A DNA stretch of 64,000 bases, from NCBI GenBank assembly GCA_024742415.1, contig JANSYN010000002.1, forward strand, positions 1 through 64,000, in the 5' to 3' direction. This DNA is from Gammaproteobacteria bacterium (GTDB taxonomy: Bacteria; Pseudomonadota; Gammaproteobacteria; Pseudomonadales; Halieaceae). Positions 2,193-57,961 of the stretch are shown here, one piece after another; within the stretch, counting starts at the first letter, position 1, and each line of letters begins with the position of its first letter. The notes under the pieces are model-generated. The model saw nothing but the letters and a program-made list of their open reading frames with translations, did not search any database and was not told the DNA's origin. A program made the translations under genes and the position numbers.

Positions 2193-3248
2193 ATGCCAAA
2201 CCTATTTGATATTCAACGACAGCTCCCCTGCACACCTCGCCTTATGACCGACTACCTCGTTCGCGCATCTTCGCTCAGTGGCATTCGATCTGCCATCGTG
2301 AGCCTGGGTGCAGACCCGGATGAGCTAAACCTTCTGACCCAGCTGGAGGCAGCCGCACTGGACGAGGAGTCCTGGATTTCATACAGCAGCTTTCTCACCC
2401 TGTTGCAGGAATCTGCCCAGTTGACCGACTGCCCCCATTTTGGGCTTTCGTTATCACAGCATCAGGACATCAGCATTCTGGGTACGTTGGGTTACATCAT
2501 GCAGCAGGCACCGAACCTGCGAACAGCGCTGCTTGAACTGGCCAAGTACTTTGCTTACCACAACCAGGGCGCGAAAATTTCGCTGACGGTAGAGAAAGGC
2601 ATTGCGTTGTGGCGCTTTGATTGTGAGCTGGAAGGCATTCTTCCTGTCACACAACAAGTCGACCTGGTAGCGGGCCTGGCGCTGGATGTCATGAGGCTTC
2701 TGTGGACGCCAAAATGGTCGCCGGACGTGGTCTACTTTCCCCACGCGACGCCGGTCGACATTAAGCCTTACCAGAAACGATTCGACTGCCCCTTGCAGTT
2801 CGACTGGGAATCTCTGACAGTCGCTTTCGATGCCGCGATTCTCGATCAGGCCATTCTCGATGCGAACCCGCAATTGCACAGTGTTTTCGAGAAGTACTTA
2901 CGCAATATTGCAGCGAGCTTCAGCGACGACTATTGCGGTCAAATCAAGCACATCATCAAACATGCGTTGAGTACCGGGGACATCTCGATAGAACGTGTTG
3001 CCGGTTTACTCGGTGTCAACAAGCGCACGCTGCAGCGGCAGTTGGCGCGTCACAACACCAGCTACAAGGATCTGCTGGAGGAGGTTCGCTTTAACGCGGC
3101 CAGACGCTACCTGCTTGAATCAAACGGTTCACTGACCAATCTGGCAGACATGCTTGGATACTCAGAACTGAGTGTCTTCTCGAGTGCGTTCCGGCGTGAT
3201 CATGGTGTCTCGCCGAGGCAATGGCGTCAGCAGCATCTGGCGCATTAA
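2193..3248 (+). CDS. AraC-family transcriptional regulator (arabinose-binding-like N-domain)
   Basis: A 351-residue DNA-binding regulator. The N-terminal ~200 residues match the Arabinose_bd-like ligand domain of the OruR/ArgR-type AraC subgroup (motifs LGTLGYIMQQAPNLR and FDCPLQFDW), and the last ~95 residues form the double helix-turn-helix with RVAGLLGVNKRTLQRQL and a second HTH ending in GVSPRQWR. Regulators of this subgroup often control catabolic operons for lipids, steroids or aromatic compounds. The frame is open further upstream, but the region before 2193 is low in coding character; ATG at 2193 or at 2244 (before TDYLVRASS) are the likely starts, neither with a strong ribosome site. 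Its stop codon overlaps the stop of the convergent catabolic gene, so it probably regulates the adjacent TonB-receptor operon. Confidence 0.85.
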   Translation: MPNLFDIQRQLPCTPRLMTDYLVRASSLSGIRSAIVSLGADPDELNLLTQLEAAALDEESWISYSSFLTLLQESAQLTDCPHFGLSLSQHQDISILGTLGYIMQQAPNLRTALLELAKYFAYHNQGAKISLTVEKGIALWRFDCELEGILPVTQQVDLVAGLALDVMRLLWTPKWSPDVVYFPHATPVDIKPYQKRFDCPLQFDWESLTVAFDAAILDQAILDANPQLHSVFEKYLRNIAASFSDDYCGQIKHIIKHALSTGDISIERVAGLLGVNKRTLQRQLARHNTSYKDLLEEVRFNAARRYLLESNGSLTNLADMLGYSELSVFSSAFRRDHGVSPRQWRQQHLAH

Positions 3249-4636
3249 GACTCCAGCTGTACTTTGAGCTTGTGCAACGCCTGCCGGAAAACCCGGCCGA
3301 GCACAAAGGCGATGATTCTTCCCGTGAAGGGAATCCATGACTCAAACCGGATGACCCAGCGCACCCGGGTAATGCCCTGTTCGCTCCACACGAACACATC
3401 CCCCTGGTGCTGCTTGAACGGCGCACCGCTCAGTAGCTTATAGGTGTAATGTGAGCATTCGGCGCCTTCAACCCAGCTTGTCACCTCTTCCAATATGCGC
3501 ATGCCAGGTGCCGACAGTTCCCTGATACAGCCCGTTCCATTGTCGTTTTCAATGCCTGGCCGCAGCACCAGGCCTGTAAAGATAGACCAGCGACCCAGTC
3601 CGGCGTGATCGGTTAAACACTCCCAGACTCTTGATGCCGGGGCATTGATGTCAGCCTCAATTTCTACATAAGGTACGCTGGGACTAAAGCCAGACACCGA
3701 CCACAGCGCCTTGCGCGCATACAGCATTTCAGTGCTGAACCCCTGCTTGTCGTTCAGGTACATCACGCGGAAGACGCCTGCGTCCAGCACTTCACCATTG
3801 GGCTCCATTCCATGGCGAACGGCCTGGCTGAAATCTCTATCGTAGCGACTGCGATCACGGTAACCCAGCGCAATGTTCATGATTCCCTGATCCGAAAGCG
3901 AGTACCCTTCAGGCCAATAGCTGGTTGCGGGCTGTTCGTACTTGACCAGTTCCAGCAGAAAATTGGAAGCGCGCACCAGAAGGCGCTCCGCCTTTGCCCC
4001 GGCCAGGCCCCAGTGGGCTTCATCCTCGTCTGTGTGCAGGGAGTAACCGTCTACCACTTCAAAACCCAGCGCATCCACATACGTCCGGCGGGCCTGTTGC
4101 AGGTCGGGAACAGAAGCTCGCATGCTGCGCACAACTGCGGGTATTTCGGGCCGCCGGGAACTGTGCTTGCCACCGTCAAGATCATCGACAGGGTCGCGCT
4201 CATAGATCTCGATCCAGTTGCTCTCTGGGTCCCGTACGTAGGCTCGGCGCTCGCCCTTCTCTCCTGCGAGGCTGATGCAGTGCTCGCCACTGAAAGCCGC
4301 TACGTTTCGCAAGACCTGGTCGAGATCTCGTACGGCAACGCCCATCATGTTGTAACCGATGTCGCAGGGTCGCCACGCCAGCGGTTTCGGGCGCGACTGC
4401 GGGCGCCAAAACTGAAAGAACTCAAGCTGAAAGTAGTCCTGCTGGTCGATCAGCCAGCTACATTTTTCCCAGGCACCTGGAATACCCTGCACTCTACTGG
4501 TAGATGGCGGAAAGAAGACCATCTTGCTCGACATCACAAACCCGAAAACCTGGGCATACCAGTTGCGCAAAGCAGGGCCACTCAGAGTAGAGAAGGCAAC
4601 CTGGCAAACATGCCGCTGGGGGTCCGTTATGTGCAT
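3245..4636 (-). CDS. VOC-VOC-SRPBCC three-domain fusion protein
   Basis: A 463-residue cytoplasmic protein that appears to join three domains. Residues ~8-145 and ~165-305 are two vicinal-oxygen-chelate (glyoxalase/dioxygenase) modules; each shows the expected VOC pattern, for example ESNWIEIYER closing the first. Residues ~320-460 form an SRPBCC/polyketide cyclase-like domain (EIEADINAPASRVWECLTD and the FTGRIIAFVLGRVFRQAL helix at the end). The frame is open to 4717, but that would overlap the upstream dehydrogenase; ATG at 4636 leaves a 20-bp spacer. It is the last gene of the series starting with the TonB receptor. A role in opening, isomerising or hydrating a ring substrate is plausible from the fold mix; the actual substrate cannot be read from the sequence. 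Confidence 0.8.
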   Translation of the reverse strand: MHITDPQRHVCQVAFSTLSGPALRNWYAQVFGFVMSSKMVFFPPSTSRVQGIPGAWEKCSWLIDQQDYFQLEFFQFWRPQSRPKPLAWRPCDIGYNMMGVAVRDLDQVLRNVAAFSGEHCISLAGEKGERRAYVRDPESNWIEIYERDPVDDLDGGKHSSRRPEIPAVVRSMRASVPDLQQARRTYVDALGFEVVDGYSLHTDEDEAHWGLAGAKAERLLVRASNFLLELVKYEQPATSYWPEGYSLSDQGIMNIALGYRDRSRYDRDFSQAVRHGMEPNGEVLDAGVFRVMYLNDKQGFSTEMLYARKALWSVSGFSPSVPYVEIEADINAPASRVWECLTDHAGLGRWSIFTGLVLRPGIENDNGTGCIRELSAPGMRILEEVTSWVEGAECSHYTYKLLSGAPFKQHQGDVFVWSEQGITRVRWVIRFESWIPFTGRIIAFVLGRVFRQALHKLKVQLES

Positions 4637-48765: not shown

Positions 48766-50538
48766 TCAGCAGCCCGGCGGAGGTTTGTCGTACCAGATAG
48801 GGCTCGTCCAGGATCGCTCTTGCACCGTCTTGGGGAAATCCTCATCACAACACGCTGCATATTCCGGAGGCACCGAACCCGGGTCGGCGCAGTTGATTGG
48901 CACCGTGGCCTCGACGCACTGACGCTGCTGCCAGCGACAGCTAGGGTTTTCAACAACACGCGCGTAATAGTAGGCGTTTTCGTCGAGTTCGAAGTTGGGG
49001 TCCTGCCACACCTGGCAGAGACTCGAGAAGCCCGTGCCCGTGGTGGCACAGGTGTTGAGGTCTACGCCGGCTCCATTGAAAGGGTCGCCCGCCACGTCAA
49101 ACACTTGCTCGTGCTTGTCACCGTTGGTGTCGATCCAGCCCTTGATGATCTGGATGCGCTGCAGGTCGTTGCCAGGGTGAGCCAGCGTTCCGGCATCCTT
49201 CATGGCAGACACAAAAAACTGCGGTGTGGTCTCCCCTTGCAGCGCAAAGGGCAAGATGGACCCCATAGGCACGCCGTTGGCATAGCCGATATCCACCGCG
49301 TTGGGCAGCGCGCACATGTCGCTGGGAAGATCCCAGCCGGCAAAAAAGCGTACCACGTGGCGCGGCCCGCTGGTCGCATAGGTTTCACGACGTTGCATGG
49401 CGTCAAACAGTGCTGCACGGCTGTTCTGTTCCGCCCAGATCACGGCCAAACCGCCGGGGTTCATTTCTATCCAGTCGGTCACCCCCTCACCCTCTGGCGG
49501 CGGCGGGTCTACGAACAGGCCCGGATAGGCGGCGGATTCTTCCACCAGGCCCGGTGTGCCCAAATGTGTATCGGTACCACCGACCATGCCAAGGCGCAGC
49601 GGATTAGCATTCACCTGTTCTTTCAGGCTCAGGCCCTCGGTCAAGGCCCAGCGGATTGTGCTCTCTTCTTTGGGCTGTGTGGCTCCGGTCCAGGGTGCTA
49701 ACAGGTGTCCGAAAGGCACCAGTTCCATCGTGCACAGTTCGTCATTGGCAGAAAACAGGCACTCGGATTGACCCTTGTGCTGTATCACTTCGATTAAGGG
49801 TTCGAACCGCGCGCGACGCTGCGCGTAATTCTGGTCGTAGGGGGCACCGCCGGGCCTGAAGGCTTCGAACATAAGCCCTTGGCTGAAATTGGAGTTGTGG
49901 GGGATGGTCAGTACGTCGCAATAGTTGTTGCCATCCACAAGGTCAATACACTCCCCTTGCAGGGAATCCCAGAGGATTTCGGGAAACTTCACCACCTGCG
50001 CACTGACCGCAGACGCCGGCACGACACTATTGCGGAACAGGACATTGCGGTGCAGGTTGAGGCCCTCGATCTGCCCGAACTCGTTCAGGAGTATGGGCGA
50101 GCGCGTCCATTCATAGCCTACAAACGTCGTAAACTCACAGTCGGTGGACCTGTCGTAGTGCAAGGCGGCTGCGGCCTGCACGGCCTGCCAGCCCGCGGCG
50201 TCGATGTCCTCGGCGTGGTCCGAAACCATGGCAAAATCGAGCGGGCGATCTATTTGCGCCGAGCGCAGCGGGTCACCCATCTGGTCAAAGGGATGCAGGC
50301 CGATCAACTGGCCCTTGGCAAATTCATACGCCTGCGCGGGCGTGGTTGTGGTTCCGAAACCAGAGGCATCCAGCGACAGGGTGGTATGAACGTGCAGATC
50401 ACCGAAATAGGGATTTCTTAACACGTTGAATTCATTGCAATTATTGGCCGTTCCATCGCCATCATCCAGCGCCTGGACGGGGCCCGTAACGCCCACAGCG
50501 CAGGCCACGAGCAATGCATTAATAATACGAGTTTTCAC
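48766..50538 (-). CDS. Exported DUF3604 protein, second copy
   Basis: A 590-residue protein with a signal peptide (NALLVACAVGVTGPVQA). It has GDLHVHT at 46-52, a second motif at VSDHAEDIDAAG, IPHNSN in the middle, GGTDTHLG, and ends VQERSWTSPIWYDKPPPGC, matching the tail of the first copy at 9707-11674. It has more Cys than copy one (several near the C-terminus: CEATVPINC, ACCDED), probably paired in disulfides. It diverges from the small c-type cytochrome gene, and may be unlinked to it. Confidence 0.87.
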   Translation of the reverse strand: MKTRIINALLVACAVGVTGPVQALDDGDGTANNCNEFNVLRNPYFGDLHVHTTLSLDASGFGTTTTPAQAYEFAKGQLIGLHPFDQMGDPLRSAQIDRPLDFAMVSDHAEDIDAAGWQAVQAAAALHYDRSTDCEFTTFVGYEWTRSPILLNEFGQIEGLNLHRNVLFRNSVVPASAVSAQVVKFPEILWDSLQGECIDLVDGNNYCDVLTIPHNSNFSQGLMFEAFRPGGAPYDQNYAQRRARFEPLIEVIQHKGQSECLFSANDELCTMELVPFGHLLAPWTGATQPKEESTIRWALTEGLSLKEQVNANPLRLGMVGGTDTHLGTPGLVEESAAYPGLFVDPPPPEGEGVTDWIEMNPGGLAVIWAEQNSRAALFDAMQRRETYATSGPRHVVRFFAGWDLPSDMCALPNAVDIGYANGVPMGSILPFALQGETTPQFFVSAMKDAGTLAHPGNDLQRIQIIKGWIDTNGDKHEQVFDVAGDPFNGAGVDLNTCATTGTGFSSLCQVWQDPNFELDENAYYYARVVENPSCRWQQRQCVEATVPINCADPGSVPPEYAACCDEDFPKTVQERSWTSPIWYDKPPPGC

Positions 50539-51048: not shown

Positions 51049-51300
51049 ATGAAACCCTTTGTACTGACGATGGCGCTTACCGCCGCCATCACCCTGGCAG
51101 GTGCCGCCCGGGCTAACGACGACAACCTCTGCCTGGATTGCCATGAACCCACCGAAGACTGGCAGGGCATGAGTGCGCAAGAGATTCTGGAACAGGCGAT
51201 GGATGGCAGCATCAAGCGCCATGCAGACAACCAGGAATTCACTCAAGAGCAACTCGAGGCGCTGATCGCAGAAATGCTGGACCCGCCAGCACCTGAATGA
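51049..51300 (+). CDS. Small exported monoheme c-type cytochrome-like protein
   Basis: An 83-residue protein with a Sec signal peptide (MKPFVLTMALTAAITLAGAARA) and a single heme-c site CLDCH at 28-32, placed just after the cleavage site. The rest is acidic, with EILEQAMDGSIKRHADNQEFTQEQLEALIAEMLDP, a helical tail that could give the axial sixth ligand (His) for the heme. GGAGAG lies about seven bases before the ATG. It lies tail to tail with the MtrC-type gene, 155 bp away, so it may be an electron shuttle for the same system. The open frame on the opposite strand is a shadow. Confidence 0.85.
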   Translation: MKPFVLTMALTAAITLAGAARANDDNLCLDCHEPTEDWQGMSAQEILEQAMDGSIKRHADNQEFTQEQLEALIAEMLDPPAPE

Positions 51301-51455
51301 GCCCGCTGCCACGGCCGCGCTTGTAAGGCGGGGCACAAGCACCGTGCCGGTGCCAAATCAGCCTGGCCTGTCATTTGCCAGCAGAAACCTCCCGGCGGCG
51401 CCCACGCCGACCGCGGTGCCATCACCACCTGTGAGCGCGTCTCATAAGGCGCGAG

Positions 51456-53717
51456 TCAGCGCGGATTATGCACCGCAGACACATCCGACACCCGCCCCGA
51501 ACCGTGGCACACCGAACACTCCTCAACGACCTCGCCGCTGTCGATGCTAGCCTGGCGGGTGGCAAAGTTGCCGCCGTTGGATGTCATGTGTGCTATCGCC
51601 TCATCACCGTCGTGGCAGCTTGAGCATACCGCCGCCACCGGCGTCACGACCACATCATCAGCCGGGTCTGCCCGGTCTGCGCCGGTATCAATGGTTGTGC
51701 CCAGCACCCCGTCCGCCAGCGGCAGGGTGAAGCCGTCACTGGTGTGACAGGCGGTGCAATTGGACAGGTCGCCCGGATAGTGCACGGCGTCTTCATCGTA
51801 GCGGTAGGTAGTGAAACCGCGGAAGCCAACCACCTCCAGCGGGTTCTCACGCATCGCTGAGGCGTGTATCGCGTGCACCATGGTTTTGAAATCGATGGAC
51901 TCTTCGTCCTTGCCATCCGTGGGTGGATTCATCGCCACTTCACGCACCCGCTTGTCGGTGTTACGCGGGTTGTGGCAGGTTGCACAGCCGGTGATATCGT
52001 CAGTGCGATTATCGCCATGCAGCGAAAGCGTACTGTGGCAGGCAAGGCAGCTGCGCAGCTCCACGGACTCACGCCTGGCCACCGCACCACCATCTGGCTC
52101 GTCGATCGAGAAGAACGCGTGAACGTTTTTCAACGGGATGTTTTCTGTTTCACCGTCGCCATCAACATCCATCACCGGATGGCCTTCGATGGTAATCGCA
52201 CCGCTGCCGCTCGCGGCAACCCCCGGTGCGCGACTGCCATCAGGAATTGCCAGTGGCATGGTGACAGAATAGGAGCCATCGCCATTGTCGACCGAACCGA
52301 GAACGGCATCCGTCTGGTAGTTGCTGGCGTTGTCCTGCTCGTTGCCTGTGTTGGTAAAGTCGCGGGTGGCCCAGGCCATACCAATGCGCACACCAAAGGG
52401 TTCAAACGCCGGGTTGTTCTTGATGGCGTAGTCCTCGCCGGTGAGCGGGTTACTGATCTTGAAGGTGACGACGGGGTTCTCCCCCGGCAAGGTATTGCTC
52501 ACATCGAGTATCTGCGCAGCATAGGCCTGACTTGCCTCGCGCACGAGGTTGCGGTGGCTGTCAGCGATACTGCCGGCAAACCCGCCTTCAGAATGGCAAC
52601 TGGCACAGGCCGTTGCCTCGTACCTGTCGATATGCCCGAACGCGTCATCGTGACAACTGCCGCAGGCAGCCGGCGAGGCCACTTGAGCCCAGTTGTCACC
52701 CTGCGACGTCAACACCAGGTCATCGCGGCCGGCTCCAGTGGCCGTACCGGCATGACAGTTCACGCAGTTACGAATGTCCTGCGGGTAATGCAGCCCGGAG
52801 TAATCATGCTTGCTGTCGCGAAACCCCCAGATCGCATACTCACCGCCGTCCACCACGCTGGGCAGTGCTGCGCCACGGTGCAGCTTGTGGATCATCACTT
52901 TCATGTCTACGGAGTTGCCACTGTTGGCATCCGTCGAACCGGCGTTGTGGCATGCCACGCAGTACTGCATTTCCCGGCGATTACCGCCGTGAATGGCCAG
53001 CGGGTCATGGCAGTTGTTGCAATTGGCGGTGGCGGCAATATCCATGGTAAAGATACCCGCGGTGGCACCGGTTGCGGGCACCCAGTCAAAGAATGGGTTG
53101 GCGGTAGTGGCCGCATTGCCATCGAACTGAATGGCCACGCGGTGGGTTTGGGTGGGCTCATAACCCAGGTCCAGGCCCTCGCTCTGCGCCTGCTCAAGCA
53201 TCTCCTGCGGCAGAGCATCCAGGCGCGTCGCAAATTGATAGGTGTAAGTGCCATCCTGGTGATTGGTCAACTCACCCTCGCGCTCGGACGTGGCCTGCAG
53301 TTTGTCCTCGGTGCCCGGCCCCACGCTACCTGCGGTTTCAATGCGATTGACGTAGGATTGCCAGGTTCCTGTCAGATTGCCCAGCGGGCTGGCCTGGAGT
53401 TTGGCAATCACAAAGCGCAGATTCCCGATAGCAAGGTCAGTGATCGCAATGCCGTCGCCATCGGTCAACTGGAAGTGCACAGTGGGCTGGTTGTCGGCGT
53501 TCAGCGTCACCTCGGTAATCGTCGCCAGCAGCGTTTGCGCCTCGGCGTAGGGCGTAGGATTGGGGTTGGGAATTACCGGTGGTGGCGGCGCAACCGGGCC
53601 CGTTGGCGGAGGCCCCGGTTCAACGCCCGCGGCGCGGTCACCTCCACCTCCGCCGCCACAGGCGACCATCAGGACGAGCAGGCCCGCCACTATCGCATTC
53701 CAGATTAACTTACCCAT
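51456..53717 (-). CDS. mtrC: OmcA/MtrC-family decaheme c-type cytochrome, surface lipoprotein
   Basis: A 753-residue lipoprotein (lipobox LMVAC, Cys20, followed by a Gly run and a Pro-rich linker). It has exactly ten CxxCH heme sites, in order CNNCH, CVACH, CVNCH, CGSCH, CASCH, CLACH, CATCH, CTACH, CSSCH and CSVCH, in two pentaheme halves, each with an HxNR-type loop (IHGGNRREMQYC; LHGDNRTDDIT) and a beta-rich domain before it (TIGR03507-type architecture, OmcA/MtrC). These proteins sit outside the cell and pass electrons to minerals, metals or an electrode, or take them up. CAGGAG precedes the ATG. It follows the MtrB-type gene by 32 bp and ends the A-B-C unit. The long opposite-strand frame is a GC-driven shadow. 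Confidence 0.93.
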   Translation of the reverse strand: MGKLIWNAIVAGLLVLMVACGGGGGGDRAAGVEPGPPPTGPVAPPPPVIPNPNPTPYAEAQTLLATITEVTLNADNQPTVHFQLTDGDGIAITDLAIGNLRFVIAKLQASPLGNLTGTWQSYVNRIETAGSVGPGTEDKLQATSEREGELTNHQDGTYTYQFATRLDALPQEMLEQAQSEGLDLGYEPTQTHRVAIQFDGNAATTANPFFDWVPATGATAGIFTMDIAATANCNNCHDPLAIHGGNRREMQYCVACHNAGSTDANSGNSVDMKVMIHKLHRGAALPSVVDGGEYAIWGFRDSKHDYSGLHYPQDIRNCVNCHAGTATGAGRDDLVLTSQGDNWAQVASPAACGSCHDDAFGHIDRYEATACASCHSEGGFAGSIADSHRNLVREASQAYAAQILDVSNTLPGENPVVTFKISNPLTGEDYAIKNNPAFEPFGVRIGMAWATRDFTNTGNEQDNASNYQTDAVLGSVDNGDGSYSVTMPLAIPDGSRAPGVAASGSGAITIEGHPVMDVDGDGETENIPLKNVHAFFSIDEPDGGAVARRESVELRSCLACHSTLSLHGDNRTDDITGCATCHNPRNTDKRVREVAMNPPTDGKDEESIDFKTMVHAIHASAMRENPLEVVGFRGFTTYRYDEDAVHYPGDLSNCTACHTSDGFTLPLADGVLGTTIDTGADRADPADDVVVTPVAAVCSSCHDGDEAIAHMTSNGGNFATRQASIDSGEVVEECSVCHGSGRVSDVSAVHNPR

Positions 53718-53749
53718 GGTTGTTCTCCTGCCCCCGGGGCCTCTTGCTG

Positions 53750-56032
53750 CTATTGCCAGCGGTAGATCACCGAAGCGCCTATGTGGTGTATCTGCTCGTC
53801 GGGGTTACTCGCCCCGAAGGTCAGAACGTTGTCTATGGTATTGGGGAGCACACCATCCAGCGCCCAGTCATTGCTGGTGAAATCGTAGTACTGGTATTCC
53901 AGCCGCAGTGTGAAGTCGTCATGCATCTGCCAGGTGCCGTTAACGCTGACATGATGCAACCGGGTATCAACTGCCGGCAGGTCTGCGGGCGTCACATCGG
54001 GTGCACCGTAGCTTTTGAAGTTCTGTTCGCCCTGTGTATCTGCGAAGCGGTAGTCCGCTGCAATGACGATGTCTTCGGCAAGCCGCCACTGCACATTTGC
54101 GCCCACGCTGAGCGTGTCATCGATGCTGTTGAGGTACCAATCCCTATCCGGGTCGCTGGCCTGGGGCAGCGGTGGGAATACTTCAAAGGCGTTCTTTTCC
54201 TGTCCGCCGCGAAAGGCGCGCCCCAGCTGCTGCGATTCGAAATAATCCATACCGCCATACAGCGACGCAGAGACTGTGTCGCTGGGCGTATAATTGACGC
54301 TCAGGTGATAACGCTGCCAGCGCGAATCTGTCAGCCCCAGCGTGGTTTTATCGTAATCATCCTTGCGCGCCAGTGCGTTGAAATGCAGGTTCCAGTTGTT
54401 ATTGAGCAGCCAGTTCACATCCAGCTTGCCCTGTGTTTGCACCCGGTTCGCCAGATGAAACTGGCTCAGTTCAGGGTGATTGCTATAGCGCTGGTTGTCG
54501 GGTGTGGCATTGATGAGGTTCACGTCCAGCAACGCGTAGTAGCGCTGATCCCAAACGTAGGTGCTCGCGGCACGATCGCCATACAGTAGCTCAACGCGCG
54601 CGGTCAGCGCGTCCATCGGCTGCACGCGGTAGGTGAGCGTCACGCGGTCTTCCTCGGTTTCTTCCACCGCGGCGTTCTCTCTTTCGATTTTCTCAAACGC
54701 ATAATCCAGGCTCAGGCGACGACGCCCGGGCAATCGGAGCGTGGCGTCAAGACCCATCGTTTGTGACAGGTAGTCATGCGCGGTGTTGTATACGGTTAGC
54801 GCCTGGCGCGGCTGGGTGCTGCCGTCGCCGCGGATGTAACGATAGCCGTCGCGCGGATTGTCGTAATCCCGTTCCGTTGCCTTGTAGTAGGCCTCCACAT
54901 CCAGTTTTTGCAGCGGACGCAGCCACAACGTACTGTTGAGCGTGGCAATAGCGACCTCACCATCGAAACTGTCGCGCGGCAGCGGCTGCGTTACGGTCGC
55001 GGCAGGGTTGATGCTGTAATCGAGGAAATCCTGGTCCTGGCTGGCCAGTGCGTAGCTGCCGTCGAACTGCAGGCGGGCGCTGGGGTTAAACACGTACAGG
55101 CCCGTCAGGCGGGTACGCACCTGGCTGTTATCGGGCGCCAGGCTCATGCCCCCGGCGGCGGTACTGCGTGAGCGGTAGGGGTTCTCCCAGCGCAGCAGTT
55201 CCTGCTGGTTATCGAAGTCCGAGTAGTTCACACGGCCTTCCAGGCTGAGCTTACCGTTGCCGTAGAGCAGGCCCAGATCCAGTTCGGTTGTGCGGTAGTC
55301 CACTGGGGCTGGCAGGAAGGCCGCATCCCCCGTGGAGGCGTCAGAGTAAATAGCACCGCTGATGTCCGCCGTGCCTTGTTTATCTTCGTAAGACAGGCCA
55401 CCTTCAAGGCGCCAGTTCTCGTTCAGCTTCGCCTGAAGTGATGCAGACAGCGTATCTCTGGCCAGTTCCCGATCAAACGACCGCAGTGCGTCATTCAATG
55501 ATGTAAAACCCCCGGTTATAGACGCAGCGTTCCAGTCATCGGGCAGGGTCAGGTGATTGTCCGTACCGCCGAACGGGGTGCGGCCGCTGTTGTTGCGCAC
55601 TTGCAACTGCGAGTCAAAGCCCAGCTGCAGGCGCAGCTTGTCAGCAATACCCCAGCTGATTTCGCCTTCCCGGGTCTCCAGGCCAAGGTCTGACATTGAC
55701 ACGCGCCACTGACTGTCACTGTTGCTGAAGTCCTGCCAGCGCAGGTTGCCGATCAACGCCGGGCCACGCTCATGCAGGCCGTTGTACTGGCCGAACATGA
55801 AGCTGTTCTGCTCCACGTACTGCAGGCCGAGCTCCATCACACCGGCGTCGCCGCCGGACACCCGCCTGCCCGGATCAAACAGCGTGCCGGTTGCGGGGAT
55901 AATCGGCCGATAGACTTTCTCAACAGAGGATTCCTCCGCCAGCTCTGCTGCCTGCGGGCTGGCCGCAGCGCACAGCACTAGCAGCGTGCCGATGATCGGC
56001 ACAGGAAGTGCTTCCAGGCGTCGGCGCGTCAT
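53750..56032 (-). CDS. mtrB: MtrB/PioB-family decaheme-associated outer-membrane barrel
   Basis: A 760-residue outer-membrane protein: signal peptide (PIIGTLLVLCAAASPQAA), short N-terminal part with GMxELGLQYVEQNSFMFGQYNGL, and about 26-28 amphipathic strands ending in IYRWQ. The pattern (GETREGEISWGIADKLRLQLGFD; GPDYxxTELDLGLLYGNGKLSL and others) is that of the MtrB/PioB family, which holds MtrA inside its pore and links it to the surface cytochrome. No N-terminal CxxC as in Shewanella MtrB is visible. The ATG at 56032 overlaps the stop of the upstream decaheme gene (ATGA), so A and B are translationally coupled. Confidence 0.9.
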   Translation of the reverse strand: MTRRRLEALPVPIIGTLLVLCAAASPQAAELAEESSVEKVYRPIIPATGTLFDPGRRVSGGDAGVMELGLQYVEQNSFMFGQYNGLHERGPALIGNLRWQDFSNSDSQWRVSMSDLGLETREGEISWGIADKLRLQLGFDSQLQVRNNSGRTPFGGTDNHLTLPDDWNAASITGGFTSLNDALRSFDRELARDTLSASLQAKLNENWRLEGGLSYEDKQGTADISGAIYSDASTGDAAFLPAPVDYRTTELDLGLLYGNGKLSLEGRVNYSDFDNQQELLRWENPYRSRSTAAGGMSLAPDNSQVRTRLTGLYVFNPSARLQFDGSYALASQDQDFLDYSINPAATVTQPLPRDSFDGEVAIATLNSTLWLRPLQKLDVEAYYKATERDYDNPRDGYRYIRGDGSTQPRQALTVYNTAHDYLSQTMGLDATLRLPGRRRLSLDYAFEKIERENAAVEETEEDRVTLTYRVQPMDALTARVELLYGDRAASTYVWDQRYYALLDVNLINATPDNQRYSNHPELSQFHLANRVQTQGKLDVNWLLNNNWNLHFNALARKDDYDKTTLGLTDSRWQRYHLSVNYTPSDTVSASLYGGMDYFESQQLGRAFRGGQEKNAFEVFPPLPQASDPDRDWYLNSIDDTLSVGANVQWRLAEDIVIAADYRFADTQGEQNFKSYGAPDVTPADLPAVDTRLHHVSVNGTWQMHDDFTLRLEYQYYDFTSNDWALDGVLPNTIDNVLTFGASNPDEQIHHIGASVIYRWQ

Positions 56033-56916
56033 CGTGTCAGCCTCGCACCGGAGGGGTGATTGGAGCCATGCACCTGGCTGTGGCAGTTGAGGCAGTTCTT
56101 GCCCAGCAGGTTGCGATTGCTGTTGCCGCCGGGCAAGCCCTGCGCGCCGTAGGGCACCGAGGGGTGGAAAGCTGCCGAGTGGCACTGCTGGCACAGGGCG
56201 GGCCCGCGCACGGTGAGCAGGCGATCGTTGACCGAGCCATGGGGCCTGTGGCAGGTGGAACAGTCCTCCGTGACCGGCTCGTGCTCCCACAGCAGGGGGC
56301 CGCGTTTCTCTTCATGACAGCTATAGCAGTTGTCGTTCAGGGTGACCTGGTGCAGGTCGGCCTCGGTAGTGGTGCCGTGGGGATTGTGGCAGTCAACGCA
56401 GGCGGTCTTGCCCTCGGCGATGGGGTGGCGAGATGGCAGCCGGATCTGCGCTTTCTGTTGAATATGGCAGGCCAGGCATTGGTCATTCGACAACTGCGGG
56501 TCGAGCGCCGGATCCCTGCGTTCATGCGAACTGTGGCAGTCTGCACACACGATGTTTTCCTGCTCATGTGCACTGCCCAGCCACAGCATCTTGCCTGCGG
56601 TCTTGTCGTGGCAGGCCAGGCAACTAGCATTTTGCAGCGCGGGATCAGACAGCCACTTCGGGCCAAAGCTGATATCCGGCGGGTTTTTACGACCGCGCCG
56701 ATCATGCGCTTCACTGGCACCGTGGCAGCTTGTACAGACAGCGGCGCCGCCGCCATTGAGATTGGCGTGGGCGCCCTGGAACACTTCGCTAATGTGGGGT
56801 TCGTCGTCAATAGCATGACAATCCAGGCAGCCGGGGCCGTCCTGGGCCGTTGCCAAAGAGTTGACGAACACTGTGCAGCCAAGAAGCACTGCTAACTGGA
56901 CGACGGTTTTTAGCAT
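56029..56916 (-). CDS. mtrA: DmsE/MtrA-family periplasmic decaheme c-type cytochrome
   Basis: A 295-residue periplasmic cytochrome with a signal peptide (TVVQLAVLLGCTVFVNSLATA) and ten CxxCH sites: CLDCH, CTSCH, CLACH, CADCH, CLACH, CVDCH, CYSCH, CSTCH, CQQCH and CLNCH. Spacing, size and motifs (HPIAEGKTACVDCHNPHG; HEPVTEDCSTCHRPHG) fit the MtrA/DmsE/PioA/MtoA group. It should receive electrons from the inner-membrane tetraheme protein and pass them through the MtrB pore. The frame is open to 57045, but ATG at 56916 gives the correct signal peptide. The promoter region contains an FNR-type site. It could work outward (reduction of metal, DMSO) or inward (Fe(II) oxidation); the sequence does not tell. 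Confidence 0.93.
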   Translation of the reverse strand: MLKTVVQLAVLLGCTVFVNSLATAQDGPGCLDCHAIDDEPHISEVFQGAHANLNGGGAAVCTSCHGASEAHDRRGRKNPPDISFGPKWLSDPALQNASCLACHDKTAGKMLWLGSAHEQENIVCADCHSSHERRDPALDPQLSNDQCLACHIQQKAQIRLPSRHPIAEGKTACVDCHNPHGTTTEADLHQVTLNDNCYSCHEEKRGPLLWEHEPVTEDCSTCHRPHGSVNDRLLTVRGPALCQQCHSAAFHPSVPYGAQGLPGGNSNRNLLGKNCLNCHSQVHGSNHPSGARLTR

Positions 56917-57340
56917 AATTTTTGCGTGCTGTTGGGCAATACCCGTGCCTGTCTGAAGGCGTCGATCCTGCCATCTGAGCCGCCTCGCGCCGGACGTCCA
57001 GCGCCAAACCACTGCCCGGGTTCTGCCTGGGCGTTTCGGGATCACCCTCCCACCTGATGCACTACCTCTATCTGGCAGTATGCAATGTGCCCTGCACGCT
57101 CGCGTTGACGCAGATCAACAGCGCGTCATTACACCAGCGCAACCAGGGCCTGGGGCCGCATAGCGCTACAAACCCACCGCGCATTGATCTAGCTCATTCT
57201 CGAGGACGCGCCCTCAGGCTAAGCTTGGAGATGGATGCAGTGGCAAGACCGCCACTGGCGCATTGCCCACACCGGGACTGGCACTCAGTCACGGTGCCCG
57301 GCGCGGATTAGGGAATGGGAAACGACCTGGAAGTGACACC
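56917..57340. other. 424-bp divergent regulatory spacer
   Basis: Separates the MtrA-type and NapC-type genes, which are transcribed away from each other. It contains the FNR-type palindrome at 57105-57118 and a half-match (TTGAT) at 57184-57188. No other gene or RNA is seen. Confidence 0.6.
57105..57118. promoter_or_regulatory. FNR/ANR-type operator candidate
   Basis: TTGAC-GCAG-ATCAA matches the FNR/ANR consensus TTGAT-N4-ATCAA at nine of ten positions. Its centre is about 195 bp before the MtrA-type start and about 230 bp before the NapC-type start, so either gene or both could be switched on when oxygen is low, with a leader of about 150-190 bases. Distances to a transcription start are unknown. 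Confidence 0.6.
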
Positions 57341-57961
57341 GTGAAACTGTTGCGCAATCGTTTTTTTGTCGCCGTGCTTGCCCTGGCAGGCATAGGGATC
57401 GGCGTTGCCGCGAGCTGGGCGGTGATGGATACCATGATCCACGCCACGGGTGACGAGGAGTTCTGTGGCATGTGCCACTCGCTGGCTCCCATGAGCGCCT
57501 CCTACCTGGAAGACCTGCACGGCGGCAACAACGCGGCGGGTTGGCGCGCCACCTGCTCGCAATGCCATATCCCCCAGGGCAACGCGGTGCACTACCTGTT
57601 AGTGAAGGGCTACCACGGCGTGGTCGATCCGGCCATGGAGCTGCTCAAGGACCCACACGACATTGACTGGCACAGCAACCGCGAGCGTCGGCAGGAGTTC
57701 GTTTACGACTCCGGTTGCCTGAGCTGCCACCGTTACCTGCAGGAGCAGACCACCGACAACCGCAGGGCCATGCGCTCACACAAGCGCTACTTCAGTGATC
57801 CAGACGACTACAGCTGTGTTGAGTGTCATGAGAACGTCGGGCACCACCGGCTGGAGTATCACCTGGAAAGCATGGGGTGGAAGAAGCCTGCCACCGAGGC
57901 GGCTGCAGCGCAGGACGACTCCGCGAGCAAACTCCTTGCCAGCGATGCACCAGGTGGGTAA
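57341..57961 (+). CDS. NapC/NirT-family tetraheme quinol dehydrogenase (CymA-like)
   Basis: A 206-residue inner-membrane cytochrome: one N-terminal helix (FFVAVLALAGIGIGVAASWAVM, residues 9-30), then a periplasmic domain with four heme-c sites, CGMCH (42-46), CSQCH (72-76), CLSCH (126-130) and CVECH (159-163). This is the NapC/NirT/CymA type that oxidises membrane quinol and passes electrons to periplasmic cytochromes; it has the extra non-heme His and Lys/Glu residues around HYLLVKGYHG expected for quinol binding. The GTG start at 57341 has GGAAG upstream. It is the natural electron donor of the divergent decaheme system. Confidence 0.93.
   Translation: MKLLRNRFFVAVLALAGIGIGVAASWAVMDTMIHATGDEEFCGMCHSLAPMSASYLEDLHGGNNAAGWRATCSQCHIPQGNAVHYLLVKGYHGVVDPAMELLKDPHDIDWHSNRERRQEFVYDSGCLSCHRYLQEQTTDNRRAMRSHKRYFSDPDDYSCVECHENVGHHRLEYHLESMGWKKPATEAAAAQDDSASKLLASDAPGG

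Follow-up and report, generated by a model that had tools for sequence, protein, structure and literature searches.

Among the described outer-membrane electron conduits, the closest to the locus analyzed in this work is Group 6 of the MtrCAB clusters distinguished by Baker et al. (2022), which, according to the main text of that paper, is found mostly in Halieaceae, has mtrC placed downstream of mtrAB, and is accompanied by accessory cytochromes with four hemes (inner membrane), with one (periplasm), with nine (MtrA-like) and with eight (PMC8805035). The ferrochelatase gene hemH is reported there to adjoin all of the Halieaceae clusters but two (PMC8805035). Two other systems may serve for comparison, i.e., MtrCAB with CymA of Shewanella and Mto with ImoA of Sideroxydans ES-1. 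The locus in question lies within the first 64,000 nucleotides (further referred to as the window) of contig JANSYN010000002.1, which belongs to a 4.14-Mb, 99.65% complete genome of a Halieaceae bacterium (GCA_024742415.1). It almost certainly encodes an MtrCAB conduit, for which transfer of electrons across the outer membrane is predicted by homology, and it is a further member of the Group 6 Halieaceae conduit, i.e., of a kind already described. Below, compared loci are designated with L numbers and the genomes searched with G numbers.

The MtrCAB locus and its relatives

The five genes proposed in an earlier, sequence-only reading of the window are real, intact and correctly positioned, and they are listed below together with two predicted regulatory sites.

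51049..51300, + strand: monoheme c-type cytochrome, periplasmic, 83 aa, with a signal peptide and a CLDCH motif ("mono" of Baker et al.)
51456..53717, - strand: mtrC, surface decaheme lipoprotein (TIGR03507, 483 bits, cut-off 209; PF22113, 192 bits), lipobox Cys20, 10 CXXCH motifs
53750..56032, - strand: mtrB, outer-membrane beta-barrel sheath (TIGR03509, 322 bits, cut-off 240; PF11854, 371 bits)
56029..56916, - strand: mtrA, decaheme cytochrome, periplasmic/barrel-embedded (TIGR03508, 269 bits, cut-off 192)
57105..57118, no strand: putative FNR-type palindrome TTGACGCAGATCAA, one mismatch against TTGATNNNNATCAA, between mtrA and the tetraheme gene
57184..57197, no strand: weaker second FNR-like site TTGATCTAGCTCAT, two mismatches, in the same intergenic region; it may be due to chance
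57341..57961, + strand: NapC/NirT-family tetraheme inner-membrane cytochrome, presumed quinol dehydrogenase (PF03264, 100 bits, cut-off 24), 4 CXXCH motifs

The adjacent mtrA, mtrB and mtrC genes all score above the curated NCBIfam cut-offs, which confirms their proposed family membership. The heme numbers given earlier (10 for MtrA, 10 for MtrC, four for the NapC-type protein and one for the monoheme protein) agree with the counts of CXXCH motifs. At the DNA level, 29 occurrences of the CXXCH pattern were counted in the window, where 7.45 would be expected (sd 2.56). None of 100 shuffles reached 29, and 25 of the 29 occurrences fall within positions 51130-57829. In comparisons with the PDB, MtrA matched 6r2q_A (246 bits), a chain which we take to be MtrA of Shewanella baltica although its deposited label differs, and MtrB matched 6r2q_B (91 bits). 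MtrC matched MtrF (3pmq, 136 bits) and OmcA (4lmh, 123 bits), and under the usual lipobox rule it carries the lipobox-like motif LMVAC ending at Cys20.

For the tetraheme protein, earlier described as being of the NapC/CymA type, the first half of the label stands and the second is a loose one, because no NCBIfam model of the NapC/NirT class reached its cut-off (the best was NrfH, 65 bits against 134) and no menaquinone route, the source of the cofactor of CymA, was detected. Its PDB match was NrfH (2j7a, 28 bits). In the genome, PF03264 matches this tetraheme gene and, as the second of two matches, mtrA itself, and homologs 60-73% identical to the tetraheme protein are encoded near mtrA in six further loci (L014-L017, L023, and L030). 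The monoheme gene was found in eight family loci, and in an alignment of the eight family sequences, that of the window among them, the CxxCH motif and H58 are invariant. This protein has no Pfam or NCBIfam match, its AlphaFold model is of low confidence (mean predicted local distance difference test score of 68.5), and the best results were E 7.5 in the Foldseek fold search and E 0.68 for a PDB sequence match.

The order mtrA-mtrB-mtrC reads as one operon, since the mtrA and mtrB frames share four bases and only 32 bases separate mtrB from mtrC, while the tetraheme gene is divergent from mtrA. The start of mtrA is most likely ATG 56916, after which comes a signal peptide, rather than the GTG 57045 of the reading frame; the mtrB start, ATG 56032, overlaps with the stop of mtrA. 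For the tetraheme gene, the most likely start is GTG 57341 rather than TTG 57263, as this is the point where the L015, L017, and L023 frames start.

With Group 6 (PMC8805035), the locus shares the gene order A-B-C, a single core MtrC, the tetraheme and monoheme neighbors and a Halieaceae host, and it differs from it in being reduced and placed elsewhere, without adjoining nonaheme, octaheme and MenA-like genes and without a ferrochelatase gene by mtrC. The Group 6 parts are present among the family loci compared, in which two types of tetraheme genes were seen; the c-cytgroup6 of Baker et al. could be either. A HemH homolog is encoded in L020 and in 9 of the 17 family loci in which mtrA is present and the sequence runs for at least 3.4 kb past mtrC, and none was found in the window. 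The octaheme cytochrome gene stands beside a window-type tetraheme gene in L015 (3111-4505), L016 (4705-6357), L017 (5166-6479), and L030 (about 2568-3905); the two copies scanned match PF13447, and the L015 copy reaches 70 bits with hydrazine dehydrogenase, far below the cut-off. In the window, L014, and L023 the tetraheme gene is retained, and no octaheme gene was seen. Moreover, in L021 (4183-6459) a second, distant MtrC-like decaheme gene adjoins the core cluster and carries a CX10C pair that the core MtrC is without.

The system of Shewanella has the same three families, 10 + 10 hemes, a barrel and a NapC/NirT quinol dehydrogenase. Unlike it, the window encodes an MtrB without CXXC and an MtrC without the extra cysteine pair, has the tetraheme gene adjoining mtrA and carries an FNR-type box, and no menaquinone route was found in the host; in S. 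oneidensis, CRP-dependent activation is reported for omcA and mtrC (PMC4417206). Sideroxydans ES-1 shares an MtrAB-type core, a CymA-like tetraheme protein, small cytochromes, and ubiquinone without menaquinone genes (PMC13390432). The differences are a distant MtrA branch and the lack of an MtrC match in the Sideroxydans locus L098, which comes from a metagenome-assembled genome (MAG) and not from ES-1. It is worth mentioning that L068, an MtrAB-type locus without an MtrC match, comes from a MAG titled Bordetella parapertussis, a seemingly doubtful title for such a gene set.

The sequence-only reading had regarded such a system as not expected, the rest of the window looking like an aerobic marine lipid degrader. 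This view does not hold, as the system is published for Halieaceae (PMC8805035) and we found MtrC in 33 of 140 family genomes, representing 12 of 28 genera, and in 8 of 18 genomes of the host's own genus. MtrB was present in 16 of the 57 genomes searched (the host included), all of the same family, and in none of the 21 from other families of the order. Among the best 80 of 365 MtrA matches in named records, a scan which may omit the window's own genome, the nearest were Halieaceae bacteria and Haliea sp. (L030-L035). The MtrC frames of G073 and G076 match those of L035 and L034 in length and identity, which, together with the MtrA clade described below, supports Halieaceae as the host family. 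The main text of a 2023 genomic study of Halieaceae isolates contains neither "Mtr" nor "extracellular electron" (PMC10100682).

The MtrA tree was built from 94 rows out of 97 sequences (L018, L020, and L029 hold no MtrA), with PioA and the sequences of Baker et al. outside the set. The window MtrA falls into a 20-row clade (support 100/100), in which every row either belongs to the family or carries the name Halieaceae or Haliea in its record, and the next branch is L036, a gammaproteobacterial MAG. The 17 rows of Shewanella and Ferrimonas, with and without MtrC, form a separate clade, and the Sideroxydans row is placed in a third part of the tree, presumably the MtoA-like one. Thus, in the phylogenetic check proposed earlier, the protein groups with MtrCAB loci of its family, apart from the Shewanella/Ferrimonas branch, which includes the MtrC-less, DmsE-like loci.

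A tree from concatenated proteins covered 19 loci, after five loci of the family with missing or short parts had been dropped. In it, the host's genus appeared in three places, and a single clade for its seven rows was rejected (approximately unbiased test, set up after the MtrA tree was known, p = 2.45e-59). In the nearest cluster, L014, the MtrA, MtrB, and MtrC proteins are 73-84% identical to those of the window, and its neighbors (P450, acetoacetate decarboxylase, and gamma-glutamyltranspeptidase) differ from those of the window (DUF3604, arylsulfotransferase, PhyH, and PhoX). It is likely that the cluster was transferred or relocated within the family; the alternative is polyphyly of the genus as coded. 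Plasmid carriage was rejected, as MtrB has no match in 72,556 plasmid records. The DUF3604 protein (48766-50538) has 31 matches in its own genome and 19 to 63 per genome in 18 genomes of the genus, and with 31 matches in the own genome alone, a search for an empty site through this neighboring gene was uninformative.

A conserved FNR-type box upstream of mtrA

The consensus of FNR is TTGAT-N4-ATCAA, and the window carries TTGAC-N4-ATCAA at 57105-57118, i.e., 189 bp ahead of mtrA and 223 bp ahead of the start of the tetraheme gene. Within the 350 bp upstream of mtrA and with at most one mismatch allowed, such a box is present in 11 of the 20 family mtrA upstream regions, the window included, and in five it is perfect. 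For 110 palindromes of comparable composition, with the tested one among them, the average was 0.24 regions; the next-best one (TTGAC), a near-identical pattern with overlapping sites, was found in five regions and each of the remaining in at most one. The rest of the same family sequences contained 10 sites in 398,631 bp. Among MtrA loci from outside the family, 1 of 73 had a site upstream of mtrA, and 71 sites were found elsewhere in 1,023,280 bp. The Poisson value for this enrichment, 8e-17, ignores kinship of the loci and is not to be taken at face value. The signal across the family is strong, though the window site itself is weak.

The genome of the host encodes three Crp/Fnr-family proteins scoring over the cut-off, one of which (L137) matches Fnr (288 bits against a cut-off of 228) and has an N-terminal cysteine cluster. 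This suggests that FNR may act at the predicted site between mtrA and the tetraheme gene.

Quinone pool and missing cysteines

In the genome of the host, the best match to MenD reaches 60 bits (cut-off 244), no match to MqnA/D (PF02621) was found, and UbiA is over its cut-off with 346 bits, so that the donor pool is most likely ubiquinone. A similar state, ubiquinone without menaquinone genes, was reported for Sideroxydans ES-1 (PMC13390432). Across the 57 genomes, MenD exceeded the cut-off in one, a genome of another family without MtrB. A second UbiA-family match of the host shows no real likeness to the MenA-like protein discussed below and is presumably a heme O synthase, with neighbors which we take to be SURF1- and SCO-like.

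The relatives provide a further lead concerning quinones, which is not a result on the window. A gene for a MenA/UBIAD1-like prenyltransferase of the UbiA superfamily is localized at most 2.5 kb upstream of mtrA in 12 of the 18 family loci whose sequence extends at least 2.8 kb in that direction:

L015, 5296-6288: MenA-like gene; homologs in L016, L017, L019, L021-L023, L027, L028, L030, L031, and L033

The encoded proteins are 70-84% identical to the L015 copy (mean column identity 83%) and have two aspartate-rich motifs, and their sole solved relative is UBIAD1. In the three copies scanned, the best NCBIfam models were "prenyltransferase" NF004617 and those of 1,4-dihydroxy-2-naphthoate (DHNA) polyprenyltransferases (80-92 bits), all far under their cut-offs of 239-277, and MqnP appeared for one copy alone (E 0.48); the UbiA model applied to the host genome was not among the models matched. 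No MenA-like gene is present within the cluster region of the window, L014, L025, L026, L034, and L035. MenD was over the cut-off in none of nine tested genomes of the 12 carriers (all but those of L030, L031, and L033). The main text of Baker et al. has no occurrence of "prenyl", "UbiA" or "DHNA" (PMC8805035). Lactiplantibacillus plantarum is reported to export electrons with exogenous quinones that it cannot make (PMC10746273). One may speculate, as a rather doubtful proposal, that the family conduit works with a dedicated quinone. The enzyme would prenylate a scavenged naphthoquinone (such as DHNA), yielding a low-potential quinone for times of oxygen shortage, and the window cluster would be a derived one that has lost the gene.

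The conduit of the family departs from the Shewanella model at two places for which phenotypes are known there, and neither lack is unique to the family. Neither the window nor any of the 23 family frames has the N-terminal CXXC of MtrB (the N-terminus is missing from L020 and L029, and the latter and L028 come from a single genome in two pieces). This motif is present in 28 of the 31 other loci whose MtrC match exceeds 100 bits (the exceptions being L036, L077, and L086) and in 35 of 72 of all other loci with an MtrB match. Similarly, the window MtrC has no non-heme cysteine after the first heme, and none of the 21 family core MtrC frames has one, as against two in all 21 Shewanella frames, with the pair lying within 15 residues in 12 of them. 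The window MtrC thus lacks the Shewanella-type CX8-15C of domain III of the surface cytochrome, a motif described as highly conserved, whose CX8C form in MtrC is needed for aerobic growth of S. oneidensis (Edwards et al. 2015, PMC4486940). MtrC proteins of L056, L057, L059, and L066, among others, likewise have no non-heme cysteine after the first heme. The FNR-type box, both cysteine lacks, the quinone profile with the lack of RuBisCO and of a photosystem, and the MenA-like companion were not found described in the open-licence literature searched.

Proposed direction of electron flow and its alternatives

Judging from the genes, the boxes and the quinone profile, we consider it rather probable that the locus encodes an outward conduit that is fed from ubiquinol and induced by oxygen limitation. 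When oxygen falls, FNR would become active, bind to its box in the mtrA-tetraheme intergenic region and switch the cluster on. The tetraheme protein would then oxidize ubiquinol, and electrons would cross the periplasm, perhaps via the monoheme protein, into MtrA inside MtrB, from which MtrC would hand them to an oxidized acceptor outside the cell. With ubiquinone synthesis as the only quinone route found, one expects an acceptor with a rather high potential, e.g., Mn(IV), complexed Fe(III), humic quinones or peroxide.

Several observations weigh against this proposal. The window site taken alone is weak, with three such sites in the window against 1.19 expected, and the 11 box-bearing loci represent about five clades, so they are not independent. 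Moreover, in L031 and L032 the box falls inside the preceding nonaheme gene, at its 3' end, and 9 of the 20 family loci have no box (L015, L016, L019, L025, L026, L027, L033, L034, and L035). The potential of ubiquinone is about +0.1 V and that of menaquinone about -0.08 V, so outward flow driven by ubiquinol should yield little energy with low-potential iron oxides. Furthermore, C42 of S. oneidensis MtrB is needed for ferric iron reduction, which the C42A substitution abolishes (Wee et al., as told in PMC12175506), and the MtrB of the window has no CXXC. Finally, an inward direction is proposed for the related system of ES-1, in which menaquinone genes are lacking as well (PMC13390432).

The most likely of the alternatives is inward flow, which we regard as possible, though unlikely. 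Here, MtrC would take up electrons supplied by Fe(II), Mn(II) or another cell, and reduction of ubiquinone by the tetraheme protein would feed oxygen respiration in a heterotroph. The ubiquinone route being the only one found, as in ES-1 (PMC13390432), fits this direction, and so does the family cluster L034, which comes from the MAG Biocath_Gamma_022 (Haliea sp.), whose name suggests a biocathode origin. However, the FNR-type boxes speak for expression under oxygen scarcity, and an MtrC is encoded here, unlike in the Sideroxydans locus and many further loci of the MtoA-like kind, where none was seen. The host genome also has no match to RuBisCO or to a photosynthetic reaction center, which makes an uptake of electrons to fix CO2 less likely; photoferrotrophy and autotrophic uptake were rejected on the same grounds. 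Among the MtrB-positive relatives, a reaction center was found in G024 only and RuBisCO-like matches in G012 only (best 82 bits, over the cut-off, though far short of the 470 bits reached by G049).

It is quite improbable that the conduit is an electron sink protecting cells at oxic-anoxic edges, where excess electrons would be passed onto extracellular peroxide or other oxidants without supporting growth. The absence of the MtrC cysteines from all 21 family core frames is in line with it, as the requirement of the CX8C pair for aerobic growth of S. oneidensis (PMC4486940) implies that surface oxygen chemistry should differ here. These cysteines are, however, also missing in the MtrC loci L056, L057, L059, and L066 mentioned above, and FNR-type control also fits respiration. 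A DmsEF-like module for extracellular respiration of dimethyl sulfoxide, suggested by the name of DmsE that TIGR03508 carries, is hardly credible and was rejected, being contradicted by the presence of MtrC, by the separate clade of MtrA, apart from the MtrC-less Shewanella rows, and by the lack of a DmsA-level protein in the genome, with the result that the combination which the sequence-only reading had named as fatal to its own proposal, MtrA in a dimethyl sulfoxide reductase branch with DmsAB nearby, was not found. The five molybdopterin oxidoreductases found in the host (L110-L114, about 700-750 aa) did not reach the cut-off of DmsA, NapA, TorA or any NCBIfam model listed.

With regard to the outward, ubiquinol-fed conduit, the conserved FNR-type box gives a direct and testable answer for one coastal marine family, namely that the system would be used under oxygen limitation. 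The missing cysteines, together with the apparent lack of a menaquinone route, make these bacteria a test of whether other hosts depend on features to which strong phenotypes are tied in Shewanella.

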